DNA of 64,000 bases, taken from contig JABFXX010000154.1 of the NCBI GenBank assembly GCA_013368795.1, positions 1 to 64,000 on the forward strand, in the 5' to 3' direction. The notes under the pieces are model-generated. The model was not told the DNA's origin. It saw only the letters and a program-made list of their open reading frames with translations, and did not search any database. Position numbers and translations under genes: made by a program. Source of the stretch: Kofleriaceae bacterium (GTDB lineage: Bacteria; Myxococcota_A; Polyangia; Haliangiales; Haliangiaceae). This document shows, piece by piece, positions 36,376 through 64,000 of the stretch (position 1 is its first letter; every line of letters begins with the position of its first letter).

Positions 36376-36402
36376 CCGCGCACGCGGTGGTACCTCGATC
36401 GC

Positions 36403-38184
36403 GTGACCCGTCGGTCCCTCATCGCGCTCGCGGCCTCGACGGTCGTCGTCGCCGGCGGTGTCGTGTGGTGGGTCGCAGGTCATCCGGGAATCGGCTCGCG
36501 CGACTCCCGCGCGCGGGCACCGCTGCGCCCCGCCCTCGCCGCGAAACCGCAGGCGCAGACCGTCACGATCCGAGGCAGCGTGATCGATCAGGTGACGCGT
36601 GCGGCGGTCGGCAATGCGGTCGTCGTGCTACGTGACGACGCCGATACGACGGCGACCGCGGATCCATCGGGACGCTTCGAGGTGAAAGTTCCGCGCGGCC
36701 GCTACCGCGTGTTCGTGCGCCATCCCGACTTCATCTCGATCGGACTCCAAGGCCGGCAGCGCCTCGACGGCGGTCCGCATCGCGAGCTCGCCGGCGTGCC
36801 AGATGACGCGCTGATGACGACGCTCGACGCGACGACGGATCTATCCGACCTCGACATCTACGTGACGAAGGCGGGCATCGTCAGGGGCACGCTCACCGAC
36901 GAGCACCAGCGTCCCGTCGAGGGTGTCGCGATCCGCGCCGGCGTCGGCATCGCGGAGGCGCTGCGCCCGGTGCTCGGCACCGACACCGCGATCAGCGACA
37001 AGAGCGGCAAGTTCGAGCTGCGCGTGCCGCCTGGCGAGTACGAGCTCGACATCCGCCACAGCCGGTACGCCGGCATCGTCGGCGAGACGCGGCTGTCCGT
37101 CGATCCGGGTCCGAACGAGGAGCTCGCGCTCGAGCTGCGCGCCGGCTGCATCATCGACGGCAAGGTCGTGCTCGGCGACGGCAGGACGCCGGCACCCGAC
37201 GGCGCGATCGAGCGCGACGAGCCAGGCCGGCGCAGCGGGTTCGGCCCGTCGGGCCGCGTCGACCCGGGTGGCGCGTTCCACTGGACGACGACCGAGACCG
37301 ACGAGATCACGCTGCGCGCATGGCCGTGGCGATCGCCGCCGTCGGATTCGCGCGTGTTCGAGTGTCGCGAGGGCAAGCACTACGGCGACGTCGTGCTGCA
37401 GCTCGAGGACGGCAAGCCCGACATCGATGGCTCGATCGTCGACGCGCAGGGCAATCGCGTGCCGTTCGCGTATCTCGACATCTCGCCGCCGCCGAACGAT
37501 CCGGCCCTGAGCGGCCAGCAAGAGCGCGCCGACGCCGGTGGACGCTGGCACGTCTACAACATGTTCGACGGCAACTACCGCGTTCGCGCGAGCGCACCCG
37601 GTCGCGGCATCGTCAACACGACGGTGGTCGCGCCGAAGCACGACGTGGTGCTCAGGCTCGACGGCACCGGTCGCATCGCCGGCACGACATCGGATCTCGC
37701 GAACGGCAGCATCGAGGTCACGCTGTTGTTCTGCGGGTCGAAGGACGATCCGCTGCCGGTCGCCCCCGAGCCGCGGATCGTGCCCGTCGTCGGCGGCACG
37801 TTCGCGATCGAGGACGTGCCCGCGTGCAACCTGACGTTCTTCGCGCGCTGGCGCGATCGCACGTTCGAGCAGACCGCGTCGGTCGATCCGGGCCGCACGT
37901 CGTACGTCTCGCTCGACATCGGCGCCGGTCGAGACAAGACGGTGAGCGGCATCGTCCGCGATCGCAACGACAAGCCGGTCGCGAACGCGCGCGTCACCGC
38001 GGTGATCGACAAGCACGAGGTCTCGACGGCGCGCACCGATGCGAGCGGCCGCTACACGCTCAGCACGCGCTCGGGCGCGCAGCTCGTCGCGGCGAGCGGC
38101 TACCACGTCGGTCGCGCGACGGTAGGAACCGCGGATGTCGCGAGCGAGATCGTCGATCTCGTGCTCGCCGACGTCGATCAGTAG
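36403..38184 (+). CDS. membrane-anchored protein with multiple carboxypeptidase-regulatory-like domains
   Basis: The protein has 593 residues, GTG start. An N-terminal hydrophobic segment (RRSLIALAASTVVVAGGVVW) acts as anchor or signal. At least three or four beta-sandwich repeats of the carboxypeptidase D regulatory type follow: TVTIRGSVIDQVTRAAVGNA, GIVRGTLTDEHQRPVEGVAI, IDGSIVDAQGNRVPFAYLDI and VSGIVRDRNDKPVANARVTA. Such repeats are common in Myxococcota surface proteins and probably mediate binding. It overlaps the convergent gene by seven bases. It follows the PP2C gene by 27 bases, but a functional link is not evident. Confidence 0.85.
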   Translation: MTRRSLIALAASTVVVAGGVVWWVAGHPGIGSRDSRARAPLRPALAAKPQAQTVTIRGSVIDQVTRAAVGNAVVVLRDDADTTATADPSGRFEVKVPRGRYRVFVRHPDFISIGLQGRQRLDGGPHRELAGVPDDALMTTLDATTDLSDLDIYVTKAGIVRGTLTDEHQRPVEGVAIRAGVGIAEALRPVLGTDTAISDKSGKFELRVPPGEYELDIRHSRYAGIVGETRLSVDPGPNEELALELRAGCIIDGKVVLGDGRTPAPDGAIERDEPGRRSGFGPSGRVDPGGAFHWTTTETDEITLRAWPWRSPPSDSRVFECREGKHYGDVVLQLEDGKPDIDGSIVDAQGNRVPFAYLDISPPPNDPALSGQQERADAGGRWHVYNMFDGNYRVRASAPGRGIVNTTVVAPKHDVVLRLDGTGRIAGTTSDLANGSIEVTLLFCGSKDDPLPVAPEPRIVPVVGGTFAIEDVPACNLTFFARWRDRTFEQTASVDPGRTSYVSLDIGAGRDKTVSGIVRDRNDKPVANARVTAVIDKHEVSTARTDASGRYTLSTRSGAQLVAASGYHVGRATVGTADVASEIVDLVLADVDQ

Positions 38185-47229: not shown

Positions 47230-48355
47230 AGAACAGGTCGATCTCTTCCGGCTTCGTGTAGAAGTGCGGTGCGATGCGAATGCCGGCCGCCGGCCGGTGG
47301 TCGCAGTAGAACTTGCGGCGGTTGAGCTCGCGACACACGTCCGCCGAGCCGACGAAGTCGAACACGACCGAGCCGCCGCGACTCTCCGCACTGCGCGGAC
47401 TGTTGAGCTTGAAGCCGAGCTCGTCGATCCAGTCGATGCACGTCTGGGTCATCACGAGGCTCTTCTCGCGGATCTTGCGCACGCCGATCTCGCCGATGAT
47501 CGTGTGCCCGGCGCGCGCCTGATAGAGCGACGCGACCGCGGGCGTGCCGCCCATGTAGCGCCACACCGTCTCGGCGTACGACTGGTCGGGCATCGTGAAC
47601 GCGAACGGCGCCTCGTTGCCGAACCAGCCGGTGACGCGCGGCGCGAACTGCTCGATCAGATCCTTGCGCACGTAGAGCCAGGCCGCGCCGGGACCGCCGC
47701 ACAGGTACTTGATCGAGCCGCCGATCGCGAACGACACGCCGAGCTCGACGACATCGAGCGGCACCGTGCCGATCGACTGGTAGCAATCGAGCACGACGTG
47801 CGCGCCGACCGACTTCGCGCGCTCGCAGATCTTCTTCGCGTCCTGGATGTACGCGCTCGAGAACACGACGTGCGAGATCGGGACGACGAGCGTGTGCTCG
47901 TCGATCGCTGCGCAGATCGCATCGGTATCGATCGTGATCTTGTCAGGCGACGGCACGAGCACGCACTTCGCGCCGCGCCGCTCCTCGGCGTGCCAGATGT
48001 ACGAGACCGACGGGAACTGCAGCGCCTCGAACACGATCTTGTTGCGCTCGGGCGTGTAGTCGAAGCACGACGCGAGCACGCTCGTGAGCGTCGAGACGTT
48101 CTGGTTCATGATCACCGTGCCCTCGGGCGCCGAGATGATCTTCGCGATGCGCGCCGCGGCGCGGTCGACCTCGGGCAGCCACTCGCTCCACGCGGTGATC
48201 GACTTCGTCCGCCACAGCTCGGCGAACTCGGCGAGGTCGTCCGCGGCCTGCGCGGGCACGCAGCCGAGCGAGTGCGAGACGAAGTGGACGCACTCTTCGA
48301 GCGCCGGGAAGTGCTTGCGATATTCGAGCAGGCTCTCGGCGATCGGATCAGCCAT
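47189..48355 (-). CDS. class V aminotransferase-fold enzyme, kynureninase-like
   Basis: This is a 388-residue PLP enzyme. Features typical of kynureninase: HFVSHSLGCVPAQAADDLAE (compare NSLGxxP), NQNVSTLTSVLASCFDYTPE, and the PLP Lys in FAIGGSIKYLCGGPG (kynureninases read SYKYLNGGPG). Asp in HVVLDCYQSIGTVPLDVVEL holds the pyridine nitrogen. Kynureninase cleaves kynurenine to anthranilate and alanine. The tryptophan 2,3-dioxygenase gene, two genes upstream in the same direction, supports this. No kynurenine formamidase is in the window. Another class V activity remains possible. Confidence 0.85.
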   Translation of the reverse strand: MADPIAESLLEYRKHFPALEECVHFVSHSLGCVPAQAADDLAEFAELWRTKSITAWSEWLPEVDRAAARIAKIISAPEGTVIMNQNVSTLTSVLASCFDYTPERNKIVFEALQFPSVSYIWHAEERRGAKCVLVPSPDKITIDTDAICAAIDEHTLVVPISHVVFSSAYIQDAKKICERAKSVGAHVVLDCYQSIGTVPLDVVELGVSFAIGGSIKYLCGGPGAAWLYVRKDLIEQFAPRVTGWFGNEAPFAFTMPDQSYAETVWRYMGGTPAVASLYQARAGHTIIGEIGVRKIREKSLVMTQTCIDWIDELGFKLNSPRSAESRGGSVVFDFVGSADVCRELNRRKFYCDHRPAAGIRIAPHFYTKPEEIDLFFSELKKVRGGAGR

Positions 48356-48367
48356 GCATCGTGCGTA

Positions 48368-48766
48368 TCACGGTGCAGCGTCGACGGGCACATCCGCGCC
48401 GGCGGCGGCTGCCGCGTCGTCGGCGACCGGCATCGGCACGCCCGCATCGACCTGCAGCTCGGGCGGCAGGCCCGGCGGAGGCGGCGTCACCGACTGATAG
48501 CGAGAGTCGTCGCCCTCGTTCAGATACGGATCGGGCTCCTGCGCGTTCGTGTCCGCGAACACGTAGACGAGCCCGGTGATGCCGCCGAGGCCGACGCCCG
48601 CGATGCCGCCGGCGATCAAGCAGTCGACCTTGTCGCTGACGTTGAGCGAGCACAGGCCGAGCGTCAGCGTGCCGGCGACAGCGCCGATCGTGATCGCGGG
48701 GTGCTTCTGTGCGAACGCGCAGCTGCCGACCGAGAGCAGTGCGACCAGAGCGAGTGTGCGCTTCAT
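48368..48766 (-). CDS. small secreted protein with glycine-rich hydrophobic core
   Basis: The protein has 132 residues. The signal peptide is MKRTLALVALLSVGSCAFAQ, possibly a lipoprotein (SVGSC). A glycine-rich hydrophobic hairpin (AITIGAVAGTLTLGLCSLNV; LIAGGIAGVGLGGITGLVYV) is followed by a Pro/Ala/Asp-rich tail. ATG 48766 overlaps the stop of the dioxygenase gene (ATGA). It is placed between the two kynurenine-pathway genes, but nothing in the sequence suggests a catalytic role. Confidence 0.7.
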   Translation of the reverse strand: MKRTLALVALLSVGSCAFAQKHPAITIGAVAGTLTLGLCSLNVSDKVDCLIAGGIAGVGLGGITGLVYVFADTNAQEPDPYLNEGDDSRYQSVTPPPPGLPPELQVDAGVPMPVADDAAAAAGADVPVDAAP

Positions 48767-49470
48767 CCGTGATACCCGGGATCGTGGCCCTTGGCCGATT
48801 GCTGCGCGGTCCAGTCTGCGAACACGTCGTCGCGGACGTCCCATAGCGCGGGAAAGAAGCGGGTCTTCATGCCGTGCGCGAGCAGGTCGGAGTGCTTGCC
48901 CTTGAGCGACGGCGTGCCCGTACCGATGATGCGGTAGACGAGGATCAGATGGCGATAGCGCCACATCTGGAGGAGCTGATCGTAGTCGACGAGGCCCTCG
49001 CACAGCTTGAACAGCGAGTGGTGATCGTGCGGGTGCTCGTAGATCTCGCGCAGCGAGACGCCGGTGCGCTCGAGGAACGCGGCGAACGCGGGCCACACGA
49101 CCTCGCTGGGCAGCTTCAGCATCGTGCGGAAGCCGGGCGACTCCTGGCCCGAGCCGCGGCCGAGGCCGGTGCGGATCGTCATGTAGTCGGTCGGTGCCAT
49201 CGTATCGAGAAGCTCGACAGACTGAAGCAGGACGCGTTGCACCTTCGCGACGCGCTCGAGCGTCGAGGTCGCGCGAGGCACCTCGTCCGCCGCGAGCAGC
49301 GACGCCATGAAGCGGAGCTCGTGCTCGATCAGCTTCATGTAGAGCTCGTGCGCCTGGTGGACGACCTGGAACTGAAGCTCGTCGTGGCATGACAGCGCGT
49401 CCGCGGGCTTCTGCAGGCGCAGCAGCTCCTCCGTGCGGATGTACTTCTCGTAGTCGGTCAGCGGCGCCAT
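48763..49470 (-). CDS. kynA: tryptophan 2,3-dioxygenase
   Basis: This 235-residue haem enzyme oxidises L-tryptophan to N-formylkynurenine. Signature segments are TDYEKYIRTEELLRLQKP, CHDELQFQVVHQAHELYMKL (active-site His), TIRTGLGRGSGQESPGFR and MWRYRHLILVYRIIG (haem-ligand His region). The glycine loop after it reads GTGTPSLKGKHS instead of GTGGSSG, a slight departure. The protein is shorter than the roughly 280 residues usual in bacteria, mainly at the C-terminus. It leads an operon with the small secreted protein and the kynureninase-like gene. Confidence 0.93.
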   Translation of the reverse strand: MAPLTDYEKYIRTEELLRLQKPADALSCHDELQFQVVHQAHELYMKLIEHELRFMASLLAADEVPRATSTLERVAKVQRVLLQSVELLDTMAPTDYMTIRTGLGRGSGQESPGFRTMLKLPSEVVWPAFAAFLERTGVSLREIYEHPHDHHSLFKLCEGLVDYDQLLQMWRYRHLILVYRIIGTGTPSLKGKHSDLLAHGMKTRFFPALWDVRDDVFADWTAQQSAKGHDPGYHG

Positions 49471-52286: not shown

Positions 52287-53219
52287 ATGAAATTGATCGG
52301 GTGTGTGGTGGTCGCGGTCGCGGCCGTTGGTTGTGATGGTCCTGCCGGCGAGCCTGGAACACGCGGCCAGATGGGCACGATGGGCGAGATGGGTGAGATG
52401 GGCTTGGACGGCGTGAGCTGCTGGGATCTCGACAGCAATCGCGAGTGCTCGACGAACGAGGACATCGATCAGTCGGGCGGCTGCGACGTGCACGACTGCA
52501 CCGCGGTGCCGGTGCCGGGCCCGCAGGGTCCTGCTGGTGTGCAGGGTCCGCAGGGTCCGCAAGGCGCGACGGGCGCGACAGGCGCGACAGGTGCGACCGG
52601 CCCAACGGGACCGCAGGGACCGCAAGGACCGCAAGGTCCCCAGGGTGCGATGGGGCCGATGGGACCGATGGGCCTCACCGGCGCGACCGGCGCGATCGGC
52701 GCAACGGGTCCGACGGGCGCGACCGGCGCGAGAGGCGCAACGGGTCCGGCGGGCGCGACCGGCGCAGTCGGCCCGACGGGTCCGGCCGGTGCAATCGGCC
52801 CCGTGGGAGCTACGGGCGCAATGGGCCCGACGGGTCCGGCGGGCAGCCAAGGCCCCAAGGGCGATCAAGGTGATCCCGGCGATCCGGGACCGACGAGCAT
52901 CGCCTCGTGCCCGACGAACATGACGCAGCTCGAGCTACCGCACTCGACGCTGTGTTGGTTCGTCGGTCCAGCCGCTGCGTGGGACGCCGCAGACGACTAC
53001 TGCTGGGCGAATTTCCGCGGGCACCTCTGCACGCTGAATCAGTGGCGCAGCGCCGTATGTCGCGCCCGTGTGCAGAACCCGGGTCGCACGTGGACATCCG
53101 AGGTGCTCGGCAGCGGTACGTACGCACTCGTGAGCGGCTGCACGGGCGGCGAAGTGTCGCCTTTGCAGAGCGGTAGCCAGGTCCCTGGACCCTGCTGCGT
53201 CGAGTGGATGAAGTACTGA
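52287..53219 (+). CDS. collagen-like lipoprotein
   Basis: The protein has 310 residues. The lipoprotein signal [19 protein letters not shown] is followed at once by a short Gly-X-Y run. A Cys-bearing insert comes next ([18 protein letters not shown], about 44-62), then a long Gly-X-Y collagen-like domain (about 76-205, mainly [15 protein letters not shown] triplets). It closes with a 100-residue Cys-rich C-terminal domain ending CCVEWMKY, probably a globular trimerisation or binding domain ([20 protein letters not shown]). It should form a triple-helical stalk on the outer surface. It stands alone after the groEL terminator. Confidence 0.9.
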
Positions 53220-53395: not shown

Positions 53396-55666
53396 ATGCG
53401 CTACCTCGTTGGTCTCTGTGTCGTTTTGGTTTCGGCCGTCGCGTGGGCGCAGCCAGAACCGACTCCCGAACAACCTCCACCGACGGAAACACCGTCGATA
53501 GATCCGACACCCGCGCCGCTGCCACCTGATGCGAAGAGCGTCACGGTACGTGGCAGGGTGATCAACTCACTCGGTCGTCCCGTACGCGGCGCGAAGATCA
53601 GCGTCGAGGGCTCGACCGATCAGGTGAAGACAGACAAGCAGGGGTGGTTCCGCATCGAGGCGCCGATCGGAGCGTCGCTCGTGATCGAAGCCGACGGCTA
53701 CGAGGTCGGCCTCGCGAACATCACGGCGGCGACGATCGACGACATCGTGCTGCTCACGACGTCGCAGGTGTCGGAGACGATCGAGGTGCAGAGCGAGGCG
53801 CCGCCGCCCTCGCCCGGCGCCGCGAAGCTCGATCGCCAGGAGCTGCAGCGCGTGCCCGGCACCGGTGGCGACGTCGTTCGCGCGCTCACCGTCATGCCGG
53901 GCGTCGTCAACTTGCAGGTGCCGCTCGGCTACTCGGGCGTCGTCATCCGCGGTGCGTCGCCGCAGGACTCGAAGGTTCTCGTCGACGACTTCGAGATCCC
54001 GGTCCTGTTCCACAACATCGGCTTTCGCGCGATCCTGCCGGCGGAGTCGATCGCGTCGCTCGACTTCATCCCCGGTGGCTTCGACGTCGGCTTCGGCCGC
54101 GCGTCGAGCGGCATCGTCTCGCTGACGACGCGCCCGGGCGCCGACCAGCGCACCGCGCAGGCGGAGGTGTCGTTCATCGACGGCGGTCTGCTCGCGCAGG
54201 GACGCATGGGCAAGAAGAGCCGCTACATGTTCGGCATCCGGCGCTCGACGATCGACTTCCTGCTGCCGTCGATCATTCCAGAGAGCGCCGACCTGTCGCT
54301 GACGACGGTGCCGAGCTACTGGGATGGCCAGTTCCGCATCGACCACGCGCTGTCTTCGAAGTGGCAGCTCGCGCTGTCGGGCATCGGCACGATCGACACG
54401 TTCGAGCTGTACGGCACCAAGAACACCGACAACGACACGAAGCGCTTCTTCAACCGCACCCAGTTCCTCCGCCTCACTGCGCAGGCGAGATATCACTCCG
54501 GTCCGTGGAGCGCGAACCTCGCGCTGTCGGGCCTGCTCCCCGAGTTCATCTTCGAGATCGGCGCGTTCCAGCACATCAACGTCACCCAGCCGACGGTCAC
54601 GCCGCGCGTCGATGTCGTTCGCTCGTGGGCCAAGGCGCTCGGCTTGACGAACGTCGAGTGGCGCATCGGCGGTGAAGCGCAGGTCGGCCGCAGCCACCTG
54701 TCGCTCGCGCTGCCTCACGAGCCGCGCGAGGGCGAGACGATGGATGGCTTCGATCCGCGCGACGTCACCGAGACGTTCGACGGCTCGTTCTGGATCCCGG
54801 ACTTCGCCGCCTGGACCGCGCTGAGCGCGAACCTCGATCCGAACATCCGCGTGACGCTCGGCGTGCGCGGCGACGCGTTCACGCGCTCGGGCGAGGTCAC
54901 GCCGCAGCCGCGCGGCGAGCTCAAGTGGAAGCTCAATCCGAAGTGGACGTGGCGCCTGTCGGCAGGCGCGTATCGCCGTCCGCCCGAGTTCCAGAGCGAG
55001 GTCCTCCAGAAGGATCTCGAGTCGGAGCACTCGACGCAGACGATCACCGGCTTTCAGTACGACCCCACCGAGGGCGCGCGGCTGCAAGCGTCGGTCTACT
55101 ACACCGATCGCTCGAACCTCATCACGACCCAGATGGACGGCACGCTCGGCAACGAGGGCCGCGGCACGACGAGCGGTGCCGAGCTGCTCGGCACGTACCG
55201 CCGCGGACCGTGGTTCGGGTGGCTCAGCTACTCGTACTCGCACTCGACGCGCGTCGATCACCCTGGCGACGAGCGCCGCCTGTTCTCGTACGACCAGCCG
55301 CACAGCCTCAATGCGGCGGCGAGCTGGAAGGGCAAGCGCTGGCAGGTCGGCGGTCGATTCCAGCTGTACTCCGGCTTGCCCTACACGCCGGCGATCGGCT
55401 CGATCCTCGACAGCGATCGCAACATCTACATCCCGCTCTACGCCGACGTGAACAGCGAGCGCGCGCCGATCCACCATCAGCTCGACCTGCGCGTCGACTA
55501 TTCGTGGCAGTGGGGACCGACCGCGCTGACGTTCTTCGTCGACGTGCAGAACGTCTACATGAACGAGAGCATCGTCACGTACTTCTACGGCTACGACTTC
55601 ACCGAGCGCGCTGCGTTCAAGTCGATCCCGATCATCCCGTCGCTCGGTCTGCGAGGTGTGCTGTGA
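53396..55666 (+). CDS. TonB-dependent receptor-like outer-membrane protein (pair 1)
   Basis: The protein has 756 residues. The signal peptide is MRYLVGLCVVLVSAVAWAQP. A Pro-rich linker leads to a carboxypeptidase-regulatory-like domain (VTVRGRVINSLGRPVRGAKI, about 50-130). The plug domain follows (VVIRGASPQDSKVLVDDFEI, ASLDFIPGGFDVGFGRASSG), then a beta-barrel of about 500 residues with TonB-receptor strands (VTLGVRGDAFTRSGEVTPQP; GWLSYSYSHSTRVDHPGDER; LNAAASWKGKRWQVGGRFQL). The C-terminus FIIPSLGLRGVL-like end fits a barrel. It probably imports a ligand with TonB, or works as a surface receptor. The paired lipoprotein gene overlaps its stop (GTGA). Confidence 0.88.
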   Translation: MRYLVGLCVVLVSAVAWAQPEPTPEQPPPTETPSIDPTPAPLPPDAKSVTVRGRVINSLGRPVRGAKISVEGSTDQVKTDKQGWFRIEAPIGASLVIEADGYEVGLANITAATIDDIVLLTTSQVSETIEVQSEAPPPSPGAAKLDRQELQRVPGTGGDVVRALTVMPGVVNLQVPLGYSGVVIRGASPQDSKVLVDDFEIPVLFHNIGFRAILPAESIASLDFIPGGFDVGFGRASSGIVSLTTRPGADQRTAQAEVSFIDGGLLAQGRMGKKSRYMFGIRRSTIDFLLPSIIPESADLSLTTVPSYWDGQFRIDHALSSKWQLALSGIGTIDTFELYGTKNTDNDTKRFFNRTQFLRLTAQARYHSGPWSANLALSGLLPEFIFEIGAFQHINVTQPTVTPRVDVVRSWAKALGLTNVEWRIGGEAQVGRSHLSLALPHEPREGETMDGFDPRDVTETFDGSFWIPDFAAWTALSANLDPNIRVTLGVRGDAFTRSGEVTPQPRGELKWKLNPKWTWRLSAGAYRRPPEFQSEVLQKDLESEHSTQTITGFQYDPTEGARLQASVYYTDRSNLITTQMDGTLGNEGRGTTSGAELLGTYRRGPWFGWLSYSYSHSTRVDHPGDERRLFSYDQPHSLNAAASWKGKRWQVGGRFQLYSGLPYTPAIGSILDSDRNIYIPLYADVNSERAPIHHQLDLRVDYSWQWGPTALTFFVDVQNVYMNESIVTYFYGYDFTERAAFKSIPIIPSLGLRGVL

Positions 55667-56379
55667 GATACGCGCTTCTTCTCGTCGCGCTCGCCGTCGG
55701 CGCGTGTGACATCGACATCGATCAGCCGTGGGAGCTCGAGCACGATCGCATCATCGCGGTCCGCGCCGAGCCGCCGCGGATCCTGCCCGGTGAGCAATCG
55801 CGGATCGATCTGCTCGCCGGATTCCAGGAGATGCCGGTCACCGAGCGCGCACCGGATGTCGCGCAGGTCGTGTCGCCGATGATCCTCGCGAGCACACTCG
55901 CCGCCGATAACGGCGCGTGGGTCGTCACCGCGCCGAGCGAGGATCAGCTCGCCGCTGCGCGCGCCGAGCTCGGCCTCATGGCAGGCGCGCCGGTGCCGCT
56001 GACGATCGGCGTCGCCGCCGCGTGGCCGAATCCCGTGACGTCGATCGACGCGATGCATTTCGGGGCGACGAAGGTCATCTGGCTCGGCGAGACCGGTGCG
56101 AACCCGACGATGGCCGGCATCACGATCGACGGCAACGATCCGGGCTCGACCGATCTCGTCATTCCGAAGGACGGCGAGACGCACCTGTTCGTCGAGGGCG
56201 ACGACGAGAAGGACATCGTCAACTGGCTGACCTCGTGCGGCGAGATGCACGACTTCGATTCGCACCAGGCCTATCTGACCGTCGGCCCCGACGATCCGAC
56301 CGAAGGTCAGCTCGCGCTCGTGTTCCGCGACGAGCGCGGTGGCGTCGCCTGGCGCATCTGGAACATCCGCGCCCAGTGA
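55663..56379 (+). CDS. lipoprotein partner of the receptor (pair 1)
   Basis: The protein has 238 residues, GTG start overlapping the receptor stop by four bases. The lipobox reads RYALLLVALAVGACDID. The mature protein reads PWELEHDRIIAVRAEPPRIL and ends DERGGVAWRIWNIRAQ. A homologous protein follows the second receptor (60313-61023) with the same motifs (WQLDHDHVIVARATPPRV; REGGVAWRVWPVRAE). It could be a surface-exposed ligand-binding partner, analogous in genetic arrangement to SusD or other receptor lipoproteins, although no sequence similarity to SusD is seen. Confidence 0.8.
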   Translation: MRYALLLVALAVGACDIDIDQPWELEHDRIIAVRAEPPRILPGEQSRIDLLAGFQEMPVTERAPDVAQVVSPMILASTLAADNGAWVVTAPSEDQLAAARAELGLMAGAPVPLTIGVAAAWPNPVTSIDAMHFGATKVIWLGETGANPTMAGITIDGNDPGSTDLVIPKDGETHLFVEGDDEKDIVNWLTSCGEMHDFDSHQAYLTVGPDDPTEGQLALVFRDERGGVAWRIWNIRAQ

Positions 56380-56425
56380 CCTGACGTGACCTGAACAATC
56401 GCCGCAGGCGCCCGTCTCCGAAAGC

Positions 56426-56797
56426 ATGGGCGCGCGCAGGCGCAACACGTTGCTCCTCATCGAGCGGGATCAGACCCGCCGGCTCCGGCTCGGCACCGCG
56501 ATCCTGCGCGAGGGCTGGCAGCTCGCGATGCTCGAGCGCGGCGCCGATGCGCTACAGGCCGCCGGTTACATCAAGCCGAGCGTGATCCTGTGCGATCTCG
56601 ACGACGATGCGAACCTGCGGCACATCGAGGCGCTGCGCGCGAACGGCTGCGCGAATGCGACGATCATCGGGCTCGTGAGTCAGAACAGCGTCGAGAATCC
56701 CGGCACCGTCGACGCGATCATCACGCGGCCGGTCAAACCGCCGGAGCTATTCGAGCTGATCGCCGATTGCGAGAAGCGCCACGCCGCGGCCGAGTGA
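56426..56797 (+). CDS. single-domain, degenerate response-regulator receiver
   Basis: This 123-residue protein resembles a receiver domain: TLLLIERDQTRRLRLGTAIL opening, PSVILCDLDDDANLRHIEAL around the usual phospho-Asp, a lone IIGLVSQNS, and RPVKPPELFELIADCEKR with the conserved Lys-Pro. The acidic pair at the N-terminus reads ER-D rather than DD. The domain has no output module. It stands between the lipoprotein and two leftward genes; no histidine kinase is near. Confidence 0.7.
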   Translation: MGARRRNTLLLIERDQTRRLRLGTAILREGWQLAMLERGADALQAAGYIKPSVILCDLDDDANLRHIEALRANGCANATIIGLVSQNSVENPGTVDAIITRPVKPPELFELIADCEKRHAAAE

Positions 56798-56800
56798 CCG

Positions 56801-57133
56801 CTACTTGCTCCAGGTGCCGCCCTTGTCCGTGCACATCTTCTCGAGCGCGGCTACGTCGCCGAGCGGGTTGCCGTCATAGTAGACGTCCGTGCCCTCGTTG
56901 CGCTTGCACTTGCCCGCGCTCGGTGTCGGGCACGCCGTCATCGTGAACTTCGCGCCGCTATCGACGACGGTGCAGAGCTTCGCGAGGCTGTCGCTGCCGG
57001 CGGCGAGGTTCGCCGAGCTGTACTCGACGCACATCTTCATCGAGTCGCTGTTACACGAGGCGACCTTGGTGTCTTCCGGGGCTGACTTCTTGCCACACGA
57101 GGCGAGCGCGAGGAGGAGGAGCAATGTACGCAT
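56801..57133 (-). CDS. small Cys-rich lipoprotein
   Basis: The protein has 110 residues. Lipobox MRTLLLLLALASCGKKS. The mature part has eight cysteines or so in a short span (VASCNSDSMKMCVEYSSANL; KLCTVVDSGAKFTMTACPTP; CKRNEG; EKMCTDKGGTW), suggesting a disulphide-stabilised periplasmic or surface domain. No family recognised. It follows the gene at 57148-58017 after a short spacer and may be its operon partner. Confidence 0.72.
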   Translation of the reverse strand: MRTLLLLLALASCGKKSAPEDTKVASCNSDSMKMCVEYSSANLAAGSDSLAKLCTVVDSGAKFTMTACPTPSAGKCKRNEGTDVYYDGNPLGDVAALEKMCTDKGGTWSK

Positions 57134-57147
57134 GGCGCGATCGTACG

Positions 57148-58017
57148 TCAGCGCTTCACCTTCTTCACACTTCCCTTCGGCGTGATCGCGATTGCCTCAC
57201 TCGCGCCGATCGCACCGATGTCGCGCGCCTTCGTCGAGACCTGGCCCCACTGGCCGATCTTCGTGACGTCGGTGTCGCAGATGCGATCGCCGGCACCGCA
57301 CCGGTAGTACGCGTGGATCCGCTCGCCGCTGGCGACGAGATGGACGTCGGTGATCGCGCCGGGCTGGCTCGCCCAGTCGGGATGCTGCAGCGGCGCGCCT
57401 TCCTTCGACAGGCCGACCATCGACAGTCGCGCACCGCTTCCGTCGGCCGTGTAGTAGAGCGCGAGCTGGTAGCCATCGCCGTTCCACGCGACGTCGGCGA
57501 GCGCCCACGGGATCGCGACCTCCTTCGCGTCGCCGGTCGGCTTGCCGTCCTTGTCGAGCTCGGCCATGTACGTGTGCGCCTCGTTCGCGTTCTGCGCCTC
57601 GAGCTCCTGGAAGAAGATCGTGAAGCCCGTCGGCGTCGCGGTCATCGCGACCGCGTACGGCAGGTCGTTGCGCTTGCCCTTGCGGGCGATCACGCGAGCC
57701 TTGCCAGCGTCGCTGCCGTCGAGCACGTGAACGCGAAATGGCCCGTTCGCGTCGTCGACGAGCAGCGCGAGCACCGTCTTGCCGTGACCGACCTCGAGCG
57801 TGCTCGCGGCCTCGCCCTGATAGAGCGTCGTCGGCTTTGCCTTGCCTGCCTCGAGCACGACGCCGGACTTCTTGCCGCCGCCGGTCGTGGTCGCGAGCTT
57901 GATCGTGTCGCCCGACGGCGCGATTTCTGCGCGGACATCGACCTGCGAAAGATCGCCCTCCTGCTCGGCAAAAGCAGGAGACGAGACGAGGAGCGCGAGC
58001 AGGAGAACGCGGTGCAT
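57148..58017 (-). CDS. secreted protein of unknown function, propeller-like
   Basis: The protein has 289 residues. The signal peptide is MHRVLLLALLVSSPAFAEQ. The mature part is beta-rich with repeated short blades (TVLALLVDDANGPFRVHVLD; GFTIFFQELEAQNANEAHTY; GYQLALYYTADGSGARLSMV; ITDVHLVASGERIHAYYRC), which suggests a six-bladed or WD-like propeller but without a named family. There are two Cys late in the protein. It is divergent from the second receptor gene. Confidence 0.72.
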   Translation of the reverse strand: MHRVLLLALLVSSPAFAEQEGDLSQVDVRAEIAPSGDTIKLATTTGGGKKSGVVLEAGKAKPTTLYQGEAASTLEVGHGKTVLALLVDDANGPFRVHVLDGSDAGKARVIARKGKRNDLPYAVAMTATPTGFTIFFQELEAQNANEAHTYMAELDKDGKPTGDAKEVAIPWALADVAWNGDGYQLALYYTADGSGARLSMVGLSKEGAPLQHPDWASQPGAITDVHLVASGERIHAYYRCGAGDRICDTDVTKIGQWGQVSTKARDIGAIGASEAIAITPKGSVKKVKR

Positions 58018-58061
58018 GCCCTCACGTGCGCCGCACAGGCCGTTTCGTGACCGGGAAATCG

Positions 58062-58080
58062 CGGAGCCGAGCTAGCTCCG
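58062..58080. other. inverted repeat in a divergent spacer
   Basis: CGGAGC, a 7-base loop (CGAGCTA), then GCTCCG form a short perfect stem. It lies in the 124 bases between the divergent genes ending at 58017 and starting at 58142. It could be an operator or leader hairpin; evidence is only the symmetry. Confidence 0.25.
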
Positions 58081-58141
58081 AGAATTGCTTAGCGTTTTCT
58101 GCCTTGCCGGACGCACGATTTGCACGAAGTCTGAACGCACT

Positions 58142-60316
58142 TTGCGACGCTGGGTGGTCGTCATCATGCTCGCCGGCGGCGTCGCTGCTGCGGATCCAGG
58201 CCGCGTCACCGGACGCGTGATCGATGCGCAGGGAAGGCCCGTGAAGGGTGCCGTCGTGTCGGTCGAGGGGGCGACCGACACGACGGCCACGACCGACGCC
58301 AAGGGCCGCTACACGCTCGACAGCGCCCTACCCGGTGCGTCGCTGATCGTCCTCGCCGATGGCTACGGCGCGGGCCTCGGCATCGCGGGCGACGATGTCG
58401 TGCTGCTCGGCGAGGCGCAGGCCGCCGAGACGATCGAGGTGAAGGGCGAGCGGCCGCCCGGGTCGCAAGGCGCAGCGACGCTCGAGCGCGCGCAGCTGCA
58501 GCGCCTGCCGGGCGCCGGCAACGACGTGATGCGCGCGCTGTCGGCGATGCCCGGCGTCGCGAGCTATCCGCTTCCGCTCGGCTCGACGGGCGTCGTCATT
58601 CGCGGCAGCTCGCCGCAAGACTCGAAGGTCCTCGTCGACGACTTCGAGGTCCCGATGCTCTACCACTACCTCGGGTTCCGCTCGATCGTGCCGAGCGACG
58701 CGATCGATACGCTCGAGTACATCCCCGGCGGCTTCGACGTGAGCCAGGGCCGCGCCGCATCGGGCATCGTGTCGCTGACGACGCGCGCGGGCGACGCCAA
58801 GCGAGGCCAGCAGTTCGAGACGAGCGCGGGCGAGATCGGCATGCTCGCGCAGGGCACGTTCGATCGCGGCAAGTACATGATCGCGTTTCGCCGCTCGGCG
58901 ATCGACCTCGTGCTGCCGATGCTCCTGCCGCCTTCTGCAGACCTCGCGCTGACGACGGTGCCTCGCTACTACGACGAGCAGGTCCGCCTCGACTACGCGC
59001 TCTCCGAGAAGTGGACGCTGCGCGTGTCGAGCCTCGGTTCCGACGACGCGATGGAGCTCTACGCGAGCCGCGACAAGAACCCCGACAAGCGCTTCTTGAA
59101 CCGCGGCCGGTTCATCCGGCTGACCGCGTCCGCGCACTATCACGACGGTCCGCTCACCGCGAAGATCGCGGTCAGCGGCATCGCGACCCAGTCGCAGTTC
59201 GAGCGCGGCGAGGTCCAGCACATGAACGTGACGTCGCCCGCGCTGACGACGCGCGCCGAGGTCTCGCGCACGGCGACCGAGTTTGTCGGGCTGCGCGACG
59301 TCGCGTGGCGCACCGGCGTCGAGACCGTGACGACGCGCCACTCGCTCGACGTCGCGGCCCCTCGCGAGCGCCGCGAAGGTGAGCCGCCGCCCGTCGACGA
59401 CATGATGGATCTGTCGGAGCAGTACACGGGCAACGTCGAGACCGCGAACCTCGCCGGCTGGACGTCGGTCGCGGCGTCGCTCGACGAGCGCGTGAAGTTC
59501 GAGACCGGCCTGCGCGTCGACGCGTACACGCGTGCCGACGACGTCGCCGTGCAGCCGCGCGGCGAGCTACAGATCCGCGTGTCGCCCGAGGTCGTCGCGC
59601 GCCTCAGCGCCGGCTACTACAGCCGTCCCGCCGAGTATCAGACCGAGCTGCTCGATCCGAAGCTCGAGGCAGAGCGCTCGCATCAGGCGATCGGCGGCGT
59701 GCTCTACGAGCCGGCCGAGGGCGTTCGCCTGCAGGGCTCGCTCTATTACACGCAGCGCACGAACCTCATCACGCGCGACACGATGACCGGCGTGCTCGGC
59801 AACGAAGGCCGCGGCACGACGTACGGCGCCGAGGTCGTCGGCTCGCTGAACCGCGGGCCGTGGTTCGGCTGGCTCGCGTACGCGTACTCGCACTCGACGC
59901 GCGTCGACGTGCCGGGCGCCAGCGAGCGCCTGTTCGACTACGACCAGCCGCACAGCCTCAACGTCGCGGGGAGCTACAAGCGCGGCCGCTGGCAGTTCGG
60001 CGCGCGGTTCCGTCTGCACTCCGGTCTGCCGCAGACGCCCGTCGTCGACTCGATCTACGACAGCGACGCGAACCTCTACTACCCGGTCTACGGCGAGGTG
60101 AACTCCGAGCGCGCGCCGCTCCATCACCAGCTCGATCTCCGCATCGACCGCACGTCGAAGTGGGGGCCGATCAAGATCACGCAGTTCCTCGACGTCCAGA
60201 ACGTCTACTTGAACGACACCGTCGTCGGCTACTTCTACGGCTTCGACTACTCGCAGCGCGCCGCGTTCCGCACGCTGCCGATCCTCCCGACCGCAGGACT
60301 GCGAGGCGAGTTTTGA
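58142..60316 (+). CDS. TonB-dependent receptor-like outer-membrane protein (pair 2)
   Basis: The protein has about 724 residues. The best start is TTG 58142, giving the signal RRWVVVIMLAGGVAAADP. A carboxypeptidase-regulatory-like domain (GRVTGRVIDAQGRPVKGAVV) leads to the plug (VVIRGSSPQDSKVLVDDFEV; DTLEYIPGGFDVSQGRAASG) and a long barrel. It is clearly paralogous to the protein at 53396-55666: PQDSKVLVDDFE, GIVSLTTR, GWLAYAYSHSTRVDVPG and RAAFRTLPILPTAGLRG align with it. Start choice is uncertain because TTG is the only option that yields a signal peptide of usual length. Its lipoprotein partner overlaps the stop (TTGA). Confidence 0.86.
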   Translation: MRRWVVVIMLAGGVAAADPGRVTGRVIDAQGRPVKGAVVSVEGATDTTATTDAKGRYTLDSALPGASLIVLADGYGAGLGIAGDDVVLLGEAQAAETIEVKGERPPGSQGAATLERAQLQRLPGAGNDVMRALSAMPGVASYPLPLGSTGVVIRGSSPQDSKVLVDDFEVPMLYHYLGFRSIVPSDAIDTLEYIPGGFDVSQGRAASGIVSLTTRAGDAKRGQQFETSAGEIGMLAQGTFDRGKYMIAFRRSAIDLVLPMLLPPSADLALTTVPRYYDEQVRLDYALSEKWTLRVSSLGSDDAMELYASRDKNPDKRFLNRGRFIRLTASAHYHDGPLTAKIAVSGIATQSQFERGEVQHMNVTSPALTTRAEVSRTATEFVGLRDVAWRTGVETVTTRHSLDVAAPRERREGEPPPVDDMMDLSEQYTGNVETANLAGWTSVAASLDERVKFETGLRVDAYTRADDVAVQPRGELQIRVSPEVVARLSAGYYSRPAEYQTELLDPKLEAERSHQAIGGVLYEPAEGVRLQGSLYYTQRTNLITRDTMTGVLGNEGRGTTYGAEVVGSLNRGPWFGWLAYAYSHSTRVDVPGASERLFDYDQPHSLNVAGSYKRGRWQFGARFRLHSGLPQTPVVDSIYDSDANLYYPVYGEVNSERAPLHHQLDLRIDRTSKWGPIKITQFLDVQNVYLNDTVVGYFYGFDYSQRAAFRTLPILPTAGLRGEF

Positions 60317-61023
60317 GATACCTGCTGCTGCTCGTCGCGATCACCGGATGCATCGACCCGATCGACGCGCGCTGGCAGCTCGATCACGACCACGTGATCG
60401 TCGCCCGCGCCACGCCGCCACGCGTCCGCGAAGGTGAAGGCACGAACCTCGACGCGCTCGTCGCGCACGAGGGCAAGCCGGTCTCGGTCGAGGCGCCGCA
60501 AACTGCGGAGGTCGCGCAGGGCTCCGCAAACTTTGCACGCTACCTGACCCAGGAGGACGGCTCGTGGGTGCTCCACGCGCCCGACGCGAGGACGCTCGCC
60601 GCGGCGCGCCCGGCGCTCGGTATCGACGAGAACGCGCCGGTGCCGGTCGAGGTCGTGCTGACGTTCCCGCACGGCAACGAGCGCGCCGGGCTCGACCCGT
60701 TCCACGTGCGGAAGACGGTGTGGATGGGCGAGCCGTCGACAAATCCCGATCTCCCGGCGATCACCGTCGACGGTGTGCCCGCGCCGGACGAGGGTGCCGA
60801 GGTCGTGTTGCCGATCGGCCGCGACGTCTACCTCAGCGCCGACGCCGGCGACGGCCAGCGCGTGAACTGGCTCACGAACGTCGGCACGCTGTTCCAGGAC
60901 GACGTCGCGACATCGTTTCTGCGTGTCGCACCTACGGATAGCCTTTCGGGTGAGCTCGTCGTCGTCGTGCGCGACCGCGAAGGCGGCGTCGCGTGGCGGG
61001 TCTGGCCCGTGCGCGCCGAGTAG
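60313..61023 (+). CDS. lipoprotein partner of the receptor (pair 2)
   Basis: The protein has 236 residues. The TTG start at 60313 overlaps the receptor stop and gives the lipobox RYLLLLVAITGCIDP. The body (VEVVLTFPHGNERAGLDPFH, KTVWMGEPSTNPDLPAITVD) and the end (VVVRDREGGVAWRVWPVRAE) match the pair 1 lipoprotein at the same positions, so the two operons are duplicates. The unusual TTG start gives low, coupled translation. The ligand is unknown. Confidence 0.8.
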   Translation: MRYLLLLVAITGCIDPIDARWQLDHDHVIVARATPPRVREGEGTNLDALVAHEGKPVSVEAPQTAEVAQGSANFARYLTQEDGSWVLHAPDARTLAAARPALGIDENAPVPVEVVLTFPHGNERAGLDPFHVRKTVWMGEPSTNPDLPAITVDGVPAPDEGAEVVLPIGRDVYLSADAGDGQRVNWLTNVGTLFQDDVATSFLRVAPTDSLSGELVVVVRDREGGVAWRVWPVRAE

Positions 61024-61044: not shown

Positions 61045-63318
61045 GTGGGACGTACGCCCAGTCCGGTCCATACGGTTGGCGATCGTGCGGCTCCCGCCCG
61101 GATCGCGCAGATGTTCGCGTCGCCGGCCGGCGTCCTGATCCTCTTGCCCGCGCTCGTGATCGCGGCCGGCGTCGTCGTGCTGCTGCTCGGCCGCCGCGCG
61201 ACGCGCGACACCGCCGAGACGATGGCGCGCAACACGCTCGTCGCCCAGGCGCAGAGCGTCCAGCACGACGTCGCGTTCGCGCTCGAGCAGGCGGACCCGG
61301 TGCTCGCGATGATGCACTCGCTGTCCAACGAGGCGATGGCGACGCCGGATGCGATGCAGCGGCTACGTGACATCGTCGTCAACCGGCCGGGCATCGCGAA
61401 CGCGAGCGTCGCGTTTCCGACAGGTGCGCTGTGGGGCTCGTACTACGACCGCAAGACCGGCGCGCTGAACGTGTTCGACAGCAAGATCACCGAGGCGGAG
61501 ACGACGCGCTCCAACTGGGGCCTCGTCAACGGCCAGCTGACGACGATCGGCACGCAGGTCGGCAACTACGATCCGCGCGAGCGCCCGCACTACCAGGTCG
61601 CGATCGAGCAGAAGAAGCGCGTGTGGATGCAGCCGCGCGTGCTGTCGTCGAGCGGCAAGACCGCGCTGACCGTCAGCGAGCCGGTGTACACGGGCGACGG
61701 AGCGCTCTCGGCGGTGCTGACGCTCGACTTCGAGGTCGCCGAGCTCTCCGAGTTCATTCGCAAGTCGCCGCTCGCCGGCGCACGCAACGTGATGTTCACG
61801 GCCGACGGCACGATCCTCGCGTACCCCGCCGTCGCGATCCCCGAGACGTCGTCGCAGGAGAAGCGGCTGCTCCGTCACGAGGACTTCAACGACCCCGCGC
61901 TCGAGGCGCTGTTCAAGGTGCTCGGCTCGTCGTCGTCGTCGGAGCAGAAGTTCATGCACCTCGACACGCGCGACGGCACGTACCTCGCGTCGGTGTCCAA
62001 GGTCGGCGACCGGCGCGGCGCGAACGACGCCAAGCTCGACTGGTACCTCGCGACGCTCGTCCCCGAGCGCACGCTGTTCGGTGCGATGCAGCGCCTCGGC
62101 CGCGACTCGATCATCGCGTCGGGCGCCGCGCTCGCGATCGCGATGGGCGTCGCGCTGATGTTCGCGTGGAACATCCTGCGCATGCGCCGCGCCGTCGGTG
62201 TCGCGCGCGAGGCCGCGAGGTCCGCCGAAGCACGCGCGAAGCAGCTCGGCAGCTACCGGCTCGTCGCTCGCCTCGGTGCGGGCGGCATGGGCGAGGTGTG
62301 GCGCGCCGAGCACCAGCTGCTCGCGCGAAAGGCCGCGATCAAGCTCGTGCGCCCCGAGGTCCTGCGCGATCGCACGCACGCGCCGCTGATCCAGGAGCGG
62401 TTCCGCCGCGAGGCGCAGACGCTCGCGTCGATGCGGTCGCGCCACACGATCGAGCTCTACGACTACGGCGTCACCGACGAGGGCACGTTCTTCTACGTGA
62501 TGGAGCTGCTCGACGGTCTCGACCTGTCGGAGCTCGTGCGCGAGTACGGCCCGCAGCCCGCGGCGCGCGTGATCAGCATCATCGGTCAGGCGTGCCAGTC
62601 GCTCGCGGAAGCGCACGACGCCGGCCTGCTCCACCGCGATATCAAGCCGGCGAACCTCGTCCTGTGCCGCGCCGCCGACGAGGTCGACATCGTCAAGGTC
62701 CTCGACTTCGGCATCGTCCATAACATCGCCGATCCGATCGAGCAGCACTCCGCCGAGAGCATGACCGCGGTCGAGCGCGTCGAGTCGGGCGAGCGCCTGA
62801 CGACCGAGGGCGCCGTCATCGGCACGCCCGGCTACATCCCGCCGGAGCAGGCGATCTCGGCGCCGCTCGATTCACGCGGCGACCTCTACGCGCTCGGCTG
62901 CGTCGCCTGGTACCTGCTCACCGGCCAGGAGGTCTACCCTCGCGCGACCGAGGACGAGGTGATGCGCGCGCATGTCCACGAGCCGGTGCCGGTGCTGCGC
63001 ACGAAAGTCCGGTCGTGGCTGCCGGTCGAGCTCGAGCAGCTCGTCGTGCAGTGCCTCGCGAAGCAGCCGAACGAGCGGCCCGAGGACGCACGCGCGCTGC
63101 AGAAGGCACTCGCGTCGATCGTGATCCCCGAGGAGCATGCGTGGACCGACACGCACGCGCAGATGTGGTGGGGGAGCATGCAGGCGAGCGCGACGTCGCG
63201 CGCCGAGGCGGAGACCGCGCGCGAGAAGTTGCTCGTGCCGCAGCGCGAGCCGACGCGGGCGCCCGGGTCCGATGCGCGCACGATCGAGGCGCGGCCGAGC
63301 GCTCGCACGCTGGGATGA
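61045..63318 (+). CDS. membrane-bound Ser/Thr kinase with periplasmic CACHE-like sensor
   Basis: The protein has 757 residues, GTG start. It has an N-terminal membrane helix (AGVLILLPALVIAAGVVVLL), then about 300 periplasmic residues of CACHE type (GSYYDRKTGALNVFDSKITE, YDPRERPHYQVAIEQKKRVW, ALTVSEPVYTGDGALSAVLT). A second helix (IIASGAALAIAMGVALMFAW, about 360) precedes the cytoplasmic kinase: LGAGGMGEVWRAEHQLLARK, LLHRDIKPANLVLCR, KVLDFGIVHNIAD, and GTPGYIPPEQAI. Extracellular sensing feeding a Ser/Thr kinase is unusual compared with histidine kinases that normally carry CACHE domains. It lies directly behind receptor pair 2 and one base before the third receptor-like gene. Confidence 0.9.
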   Translation: MGRTPSPVHTVGDRAAPARIAQMFASPAGVLILLPALVIAAGVVVLLLGRRATRDTAETMARNTLVAQAQSVQHDVAFALEQADPVLAMMHSLSNEAMATPDAMQRLRDIVVNRPGIANASVAFPTGALWGSYYDRKTGALNVFDSKITEAETTRSNWGLVNGQLTTIGTQVGNYDPRERPHYQVAIEQKKRVWMQPRVLSSSGKTALTVSEPVYTGDGALSAVLTLDFEVAELSEFIRKSPLAGARNVMFTADGTILAYPAVAIPETSSQEKRLLRHEDFNDPALEALFKVLGSSSSSEQKFMHLDTRDGTYLASVSKVGDRRGANDAKLDWYLATLVPERTLFGAMQRLGRDSIIASGAALAIAMGVALMFAWNILRMRRAVGVAREAARSAEARAKQLGSYRLVARLGAGGMGEVWRAEHQLLARKAAIKLVRPEVLRDRTHAPLIQERFRREAQTLASMRSRHTIELYDYGVTDEGTFFYVMELLDGLDLSELVREYGPQPAARVISIIGQACQSLAEAHDAGLLHRDIKPANLVLCRAADEVDIVKVLDFGIVHNIADPIEQHSAESMTAVERVESGERLTTEGAVIGTPGYIPPEQAISAPLDSRGDLYALGCVAWYLLTGQEVYPRATEDEVMRAHVHEPVPVLRTKVRSWLPVELEQLVVQCLAKQPNERPEDARALQKALASIVIPEEHAWTDTHAQMWWGSMQASATSRAEAETAREKLLVPQREPTRAPGSDARTIEARPSARTLG

Positions 63319-63319
63319 C

Positions 63320-64000
63320 GTGAGGCTCGCCGCCCTTCTCGTGGTCGTCTCGCTCGCGCAGGTCGCGCGCGCCGACGGCATTCCGGGCACCGGCGACGAT
63401 CCGCTGCACGAGGTCGAGATGTCGACGTCGACCGCCGACGCGCCGCTGCTCGATGGCATGTCGATCCGCGGTGGCTCCGCGGCCGACACGCTGGTGCTGC
63501 TCGACGGCTTCGAGGTGCCGTACATCTGGCACGGTCATCACCTGCGCTCGGTGGTCTCGCCGGGAATCGTCGGCGCCTCGGTCGTCACCGACGGCACGGA
63601 CCTCGCGTTCGGTCGAGCGCCGAGCTTCGTCAACATCCAGACCGATCCGTGGTCGCCACGCTTCTCCGACGCGAGCGTCTCGGTGCTCGATGCACGGATC
63701 GGAGGCCGGCAGCCGCTGTTCCGATCGCGAACGATGGGAGCCGGGACGGTGCGTCACTCGCTGCTGGATCGCGTTGCCGACGATCGCTATCTCGACGCGC
63801 TGGTCCGGATCGATCACCGGATCGGAGAGCGCTGGACGCTCGAGCTCACCAGCTTTCTGTCCATCGACGACGGGAGCGACGACGATCGCGACCTGCGCGA
63901 GGTCGTCGGACACCGCGAGGCGTCTCGGACGATCGTCGGGGCGCGCTACCGAGGGCGCATGGTGGACGTCTGGCTCGCGGTATCCGGGCTGACGTCCTAC
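63320..64000 (+). CDS. third receptor-like outer-membrane protein, truncated by the window end
   Basis: A GTG at 63320, one base after the kinase stop, opens a frame that continues to the last base (227 codons seen). The signal peptide reads MRLAALLVVVSLAQVARADG. Then LLDGMSIRGGSAADTLVLLD, GFEVPYIWHGHHLRSVVSPG and DLAFGRAPSFVNIQTDP correspond to the plug segments of the two receptors upstream (VIRGxSPQDSKVLVDDFEVP ... FGRAxSGIVSL). It lacks the carboxypeptidase-like domain before the plug. The remainder of the barrel lies beyond the window. Confidence 0.78.
   Translation, partial: MRLAALLVVVSLAQVARADGIPGTGDDPLHEVEMSTSTADAPLLDGMSIRGGSAADTLVLLDGFEVPYIWHGHHLRSVVSPGIVGASVVTDGTDLAFGRAPSFVNIQTDPWSPRFSDASVSVLDARIGGRQPLFRSRTMGAGTVRHSLLDRVADDRYLDALVRIDHRIGERWTLELTSFLSIDDGSDDDRDLREVVGHREASRTIVGARYRGRMVDVWLAVSGLTSY

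Follow-up and report, generated by a model that had tools for sequence, protein, structure and literature searches.

How a TonB-dependent receptor and a lipoprotein encoded side by side, several times over, in the genome of a Kofleriaceae bacterium might work together is the question raised by contig JABFXX010000154.1, of which positions 1 to 64,000 (the window) were analysed. The original prediction, which was made from the sequence of this stretch, proposed two duplicated operons that parallel SusC/SusD without sequence similarity to SusD. Here it was determined that the receptor-lipoprotein pair is a conserved and co-inherited feature of Myxococcota, and we consider the chances to be about even that it forms a two-part outer-membrane transporter in which the lipoprotein would act as a surface lid or ligand-capture partner, analogous but not homologous to SusD and BtuG. 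Coordinates are window positions unless they are prefixed C (contig records of the same genome) or L (fetched loci). The genes concerned are the following, with overlaps in base pairs (bp):

53396..55666, + strand: receptor 1, TonB-dependent, 756 amino acids (three Pfam domains above cut-off; AlphaFold model)
53774..53788, + strand: TonB box ETIEV of receptor 1, residues 127-131 (sequence and alignment)
55663..56379, + strand: lipoprotein 1, 238 amino acids, lipobox VGAC; GTGA, 4-bp overlap with the end of receptor 1
58142..60316, + strand: receptor 2, TTG start, 724 amino acids, domains as in receptor 1 (Pfam and alignment)
58427..58441, + strand: TonB box ETIEV of receptor 2 (alignment)
60313..61023, + strand: lipoprotein 2, 236 amino acids, lipobox ITGC; TTGA, 4-bp overlap with the end of receptor 2
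about 63320..64000, + strand, continuing to C606:65137: receptor 3, of which the window holds the start, GTG (sequence and alignment)
C606:65134-65796, beyond the window end: lipoprotein 3, ATGA overlap with receptor 3

Both operons of the original prediction are present with their overlaps at 55663 and 60313, and the barrel with a carboxypeptidase-like extension that it had described was recovered in both receptors as the Pfam domains CarboxypepD_reg, Plug and TonB_dep_Rec_b-barrel, all above cut-off. The lipoproteins, which had been put at about 237 residues, carry lipoboxes as well. Sequence identity is 54% between receptors 1 and 2 (707 columns) and 38% between lipoproteins 1 and 2 (242 columns, E = 3e-51), so that duplication and not chance accounts for the two pairs. 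The extent of this duplication had been understated, however, as the source genome holds five close pairs (three in the window and on C606, one on C244 and one on C143, where the lipoprotein gene precedes the receptor gene) and a sixth, divergent pair on C101. The assembly comprises 9.8 Mb in 723 contigs with a completeness of 90% and a contamination of 6.9%.

A survey for receptor-lipoprotein pairs in Myxococcota, which had been suggested together with the prediction, placed a same-strand receptor beside most of the lipoproteins sampled. The survey of the family genomes covered 51 lipoprotein places in 30 genomes, 34 scoring above 75 bits and 17 weaker. In the stronger group, 32/34 have a same-strand receptor at a distance of up to 50 bp, the remaining two being located at contig ends; seven of the weaker group share a contig with a listed receptor, at a distance of 366 bp or less in five cases, 537 bp in one and 1290 bp in one, and ten do not. 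Outside the order, one locus was taken from each of 40 top-ranked genomes of the class and a same-strand receptor adjoins the lipoprotein in 38 of them, and in other classes of the phylum this was true of 20/20 top-ranked loci. Twenty loci from the low end of the phylum matches listed (the weak sample) gave a same-strand receptor in 17 cases, a divergent one in L245 and none in L238 and L240, which are short or cut-off stretches. DUF7481 lipoproteins of the same order were also considered as a second general partner family (30 loci with flanks of 1.5 kilobases), but this was rejected because a receptor adjoins only 5/30 of them, and the family serves instead as a comparison which indicates that a receptor is not the general neighbour of lipoproteins in these genomes. 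Among the 110 lipoproteins in the fetched loci the receptor lies upstream within 700 bp for 89, the lipoprotein gene comes first for six (L011, L079, L142, L150, L163 and L196; the weak sample adds L235, L241 and L243), and no natural fusion of the two proteins was found. As both gene orders occur, the link between receptor and lipoprotein is not one frozen operon.

The two proteins are also inherited together. The distance matrices of receptor and lipoprotein correlate with r = 0.88 over 39 pairs, and none of 5000 shuffles, in which partners were swapped solely between paralogues within a genome so that species relatedness was kept, reached this value (mean 0.34, maximum 0.81); nearest neighbours agree for 18/39 pairs. 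Because linked genes are expected to co-inherit, this correlation demonstrates that the pairs stay together and not that the proteins touch. A working partnership is indicated most strongly by the co-retention of subfamily B, which is independent of operon structure: receptor-B and lipoprotein-B genes lie next to each other in G021, G030 and G031 and are unlinked in most genomes. With cut-offs placed where the listed scores leave a gap (at least 200 bits for lipoprotein-B and at least 1000 bits for receptor-B), both genes were found in 12 of the 35 order genomes, the lipoprotein only in one (G019, which is 86% complete and in 910 contigs), the receptor only in none and neither in 22, one of which, G031, carries a linked pair that scores lower (101 and 800 bits). 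For this co-occurrence the Fisher p is 1.6e-8, not corrected for ancestry. It is very unlikely that the pair is co-inherited but forms no complex, the lipoprotein being a surface or periplasmic immunoglobulin (Ig)-like protein that shares an operon by chance. The support gathered here is genetic throughout and mirrored trees are to be expected of linked genes, but both gene orders are conserved, unlinked subfamily B is co-retained and co-lost, and DUF7481 lipoproteins are rarely beside receptors.

Receptor 1 consists, in order, of a signal peptide, CarboxypepD_reg, TonB box, plug and beta-barrel (receptor signal peptides were called by eye). In receptors 1 and 2, respectively, the PF00593 barrel scores 86.2 and 71.4 bits (cut-off 27) and the PF07715 plug 30.9 and 38.0 bits (cut-off 23.9), and the TonB box lies between CarboxypepD_reg and the plug in both. 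The pattern E-x-[IV]-x-[VILMY] was found by script in 30/32 full-length family receptors, and besides these in receptor 2 (AETIEV) by alignment. The AlphaFold model of receptor 1, with a predicted local distance difference test score (pLDDT) of 85.8, is closest among solved folds to PqqU, BtuB, Cir, FptA, FepA and FecA, and BtuB in complex with BtuG-type lipoproteins (BtuB3G3; 8p98, 8bmx) is also among the structural matches. The best solved relatives of the receptor profile by sequence are FepA (62 bits), BtuB, Cir and SusC (5t3r, 46 bits), the SusC match spanning the N-terminus and plug. Judged by their sequences, receptors 1 and 2 are ordinary TonB-dependent transporters.

The same domain order (PF13620, TonB box, plug, barrel) is given for the Oar subclass, and Oar of Myxococcus xanthus is required for the secretion of PopC (accessible part of PMC6434023). 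If the receptors were exporters of this kind, with the neighbouring lipoprotein as cargo or as a protein flipped to the surface, one cargo per receptor would account for both pairing and co-retention. We regard this as quite unlikely, as the best structural matches are importers of small ligands (PqqU, BtuB, FepA and Cir) and the partner is retained by receptors that have no TonB box. Elsewhere in the source genome a TonB-dependent receptor (L073:2040-4706) carries an N-terminally fused TonB_C domain (PF03544, 57 bits), and an open frame of the window (36376-38181, + strand) encodes four CarboxypepD_reg repeats (PF13620, 121 bits) without a barrel.

The lipoprotein family is undescribed in Pfam and NCBIfam. 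Lipoproteins 1 and 2 gave no match above threshold in either database (DUF905 appeared below threshold only), and a sequence search for solved relatives returned nothing significant (best E 0.027). The claim that the lipoproteins belong to no known family therefore held, and these searches returned no known family of unrelated role. The profile search that had been proposed was run with a profile of 47 rows and recovered the family across order, class and phylum: the lipoprotein is present in 35/35 order genomes (E ≤ 1e-5), in at least 219/317 class genomes (E ≤ 1e-6) and in at least 232/377 genomes sampled across the phylum (E ≤ 1e-5), the last two counts being lower bounds with up to eight and seven candidates scored per genome, respectively. 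The motifs WxL[DE]HD and GGVAWRxWxxRA are present as described, but they are not unique to the two lipoproteins and mark one clade of this much larger family. A pattern search, which reaches close relatives only, found 11 loci in metagenome-assembled genomes of Myxococcales and Deltaproteobacteria. No published description of receptor-lipoprotein pairs or of the lipoprotein family in myxobacteria was found in titles and abstract openings, with most subscription journals lying outside the search.

An AlphaFold model of the lipoprotein, built from an alignment of 47 relatives, has a mean pLDDT of 93.4 and shows two beta domains and a short helix inserted in the fold; it is all-beta except for two short helices outside the signal peptide. 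The comparison of the C-terminal domain (147-238) with solved structures listed 50 entries at Z 8.8 to 6.5, mostly Ig-like, the best (Z 8.8) having a root-mean-square deviation (rmsd) of 2.4 over 83 residues and intimin being matched at Z 8.1. The N-terminal domain is a confidently predicted beta domain with the inserted helix, and few rows of structural matches cover that region. The lipoprotein is predicted to consist of two tandem beta domains, of which the C-terminal one is Ig-like and the N-terminal one may be. A PKD match in one relative is weak (21.0 bits vs a cut-off of 23.5), and a viral structure library returned mostly generic Ig-like tail proteins. Domain-level matches alone were used because the whole-protein Foldseek matches have template-modelling scores of 0.16-0.33 and a large rmsd, and no function was drawn from the Ig-like matches because a Z of about 8 can mean merely a common fold. 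SusD and BtuG are absent from the fold-match lists, an absence that by itself excludes nothing.

A lipobox is present in 45/48 family lipoproteins. None of these 45 has Lys at +2, a residue that acts in M. xanthus as a signal for the inner membrane (accessible part of PMC3222651), so that an anchor in the outer membrane, on one face or the other, is likely. Ala at +7, the M. xanthus matrix signal, occurs in 1/45, so the family lacks this signal. An anchor of this kind would also suit a lipoprotein that faces the periplasm and serves the barrel as a subunit for its assembly, stability or gating. LptE is such a subunit for LptD. Translational overlaps of 4 bp could keep the two proteins at matching levels, but translational coupling cannot be a requirement, given that the subfamily-B genes lie apart in most genomes, and to our knowledge most TonB-dependent transporters need no assembly or gating subunit. 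We therefore consider a periplasmic subunit unlikely.

The face at which the two proteins might meet is suggested by receptors that have lost their N-terminal parts. In the alignment, receptor 3 is without CarboxypepD_reg, the TonB box (no E-x-I-x-V) and the N-terminal part of the plug, and its mature N-terminus begins within the degenerate plug. Receptors without the CarboxypepD domain and TonB box stand last in tandem arrays in three genomes:

L009:1321-3138: receptor 3
L085:5154-6785: third receptor of the array
L086:7876-9732: second receptor of the array

Each has its own lipoprotein gene directly 3', and the second receptor of L087 has lost the CarboxypepD domain and retained ETITV. Since stripped receptors keep their lipoprotein, the partnership needs no periplasmic receptor N-terminus, and the retained partners would fit a contact at the barrel or its outer face. 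It is conceivable, though doubtful, that Myxococcota independently evolved phylum-wide lidded TonB-dependent transporters, with a tandem Ig-like lipoprotein in the place of SusD or BtuG, and that their tandem arrays gave rise to stripped receptors whose barrels would work without TonB or in a mixed complex.

The neighbourhood of the pairs was examined in 29 clade-A stretches. The commonest neighbour cluster consists of antisense frames of the pair genes themselves, groEL is found in 5 stretches and a mutY-like gene in 7, and no hydrolase family recurs beside the pairs. Signalling genes accompany individual pairs: a dCache-sensor Ser/Thr protein kinase gene (61045-63318, + strand) separates pairs 2 and 3, and an extracytoplasmic function (ECF)-sigma-like protein with a long C-terminal extension is encoded at L011:5153-6385, convergent with the C143 receptor. 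These genes, and the tandem Ig-like domains that are common in adhesins, would suit a surface sensor or adhesin module instead of a transporter, a reading that we hold to be highly improbable given that no STN signalling domain is among the receptor Pfam matches, that the ECF-sigma gene is not recurrent and that a kinase-like neighbour occurs in 4/29 stretches. A collagen-repeat protein (52287-53219, + strand) is encoded immediately 5' of pair 1, and L009:7402-9327, 3' of pair 3, encodes a PhoX-type domain with a collagen match slightly below cut-off. Two other receptors of the source genome are directly followed by unrelated lipoproteins (L074:631-1287 and L075:7018-8346), the first without a Pfam match and the second a DUF7481 protein with a 4-bp overlap. 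The window also contains a tryptophan breakdown cluster (47189-49470, - strand) in which kynureninase adjoins tryptophan 2,3-dioxygenase.

From these results we infer a lidded importer. The receptor would be a TonB-dependent beta-barrel closed by its plug, and the lipoprotein, with an N-terminal lipid anchor and two putative tandem Ig-like domains, would lie in physical contact with the barrel, most likely at the outer face, where it would be exposed at the surface and would capture or cap a ligand for TonB-driven uptake. The working principle would be that of SusC/SusD and BtuB/BtuG, carried out by an unrelated lipoprotein, and the BtuB-BtuG lids are a precedent for a TonB-dependent barrel with a lipoprotein lid (accessible part of PMC10404256). 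The SusC/SusD parallel of the original prediction thus stands for a conserved, co-inherited Myxococcota pair without SusD homology, import and a surface location of the lipoprotein being putative.

Several observations weigh against a lidded importer. The Ig-like matches of the model are generic (best Z 8.8) and uninformative about a ligand. Acidic residues are only mildly enriched at +3/+4/+6 after the lipid cysteine (25/45, 20/45 and 28/45; a small background set has 4/14, 2/14 and 6/14), and a putative surface-export signal in this region is not decisive. Co-inheritance alone can yield matching trees of linked genes, and Oar, which has the same receptor architecture, exports a protein in Myxococcus (accessible part of PMC6434023). 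Lipoproteins without receptors, which had been named as evidence against a module, were found in part: L173 and L176 of the class sample have no adjacent receptor, and neither do the subfamily-B lipoproteins in ten fetched loci (L053-L062), the receptors of the matching subfamily being without a lipoprotein in ten other loci (L063-L072). The subfamily-B genomes, except G019, keep the matching receptor elsewhere.

The best-documented cases of TonB-dependent import with a lipoprotein cap come from Bacteroidota. If the reading as a lidded importer is correct, lidded import would have arisen more than once, given an unrelated lipoprotein that pairs with such receptors across a soil-predator phylum, and a function would be given to a lipoprotein family that spans the Myxococcota genomes counted above. 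TbpA/TbpB and other Slam-type surface-lipoprotein receptors of Neisseria likewise combine a TonB-dependent barrel with a lipoprotein, but the lobes of TbpB are lipocalin-like and not tandem Ig domains. The pairs resemble SusC/SusD (RagA/RagB) of Bacteroidota in that a TonB-dependent receptor with a CarboxypepD-type N-terminus adjoins a lipoprotein gene and in that there are many paralogous pairs per genome. They differ in that TIGR04056 (SusC/RagA) gives receptors 1 and 2 only 26.5 and 26.6 bits, on the N-terminal domain only, against a cut-off of 368.25, and in the lack of recurring hydrolases. SusD is helical and based on tetratricopeptide repeats, whereas the lipoprotein is predicted to be all-beta, and no SusD model is among the Pfam and NCBIfam matches of the lipoproteins at E ≤ 10; membership in SusD was rejected by sequence models and predicted fold alike. 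The SusC protein is not mentioned in the accessible parts of PMC8546572, PMC6971385 and PMC4158809.

Oar shares the receptor layout described above, but no partner lipoprotein is mentioned for it in the accessible part of PMC6434023. Residues 35-128 of SGBP-B from Bacteroides ovatus (6e57) align with the C-terminal domain of the lipoprotein (Z 8.4, rmsd 2.7, 82 residues), a Z that is near background for common folds, and no glycan-binding domain was found in the lipoprotein. BtuG is a seven-bladed beta-propeller, whereas the lipoprotein is modelled with two domains, the C-terminal one Ig-like, and belongs to a different phylum. The likeness to BtuB/BtuG of Bacteroides lies in the combination of a TonB-dependent barrel with a non-SusD lipoprotein, which in the case of BtuG forms a surface lid (accessible part of PMC10404256).

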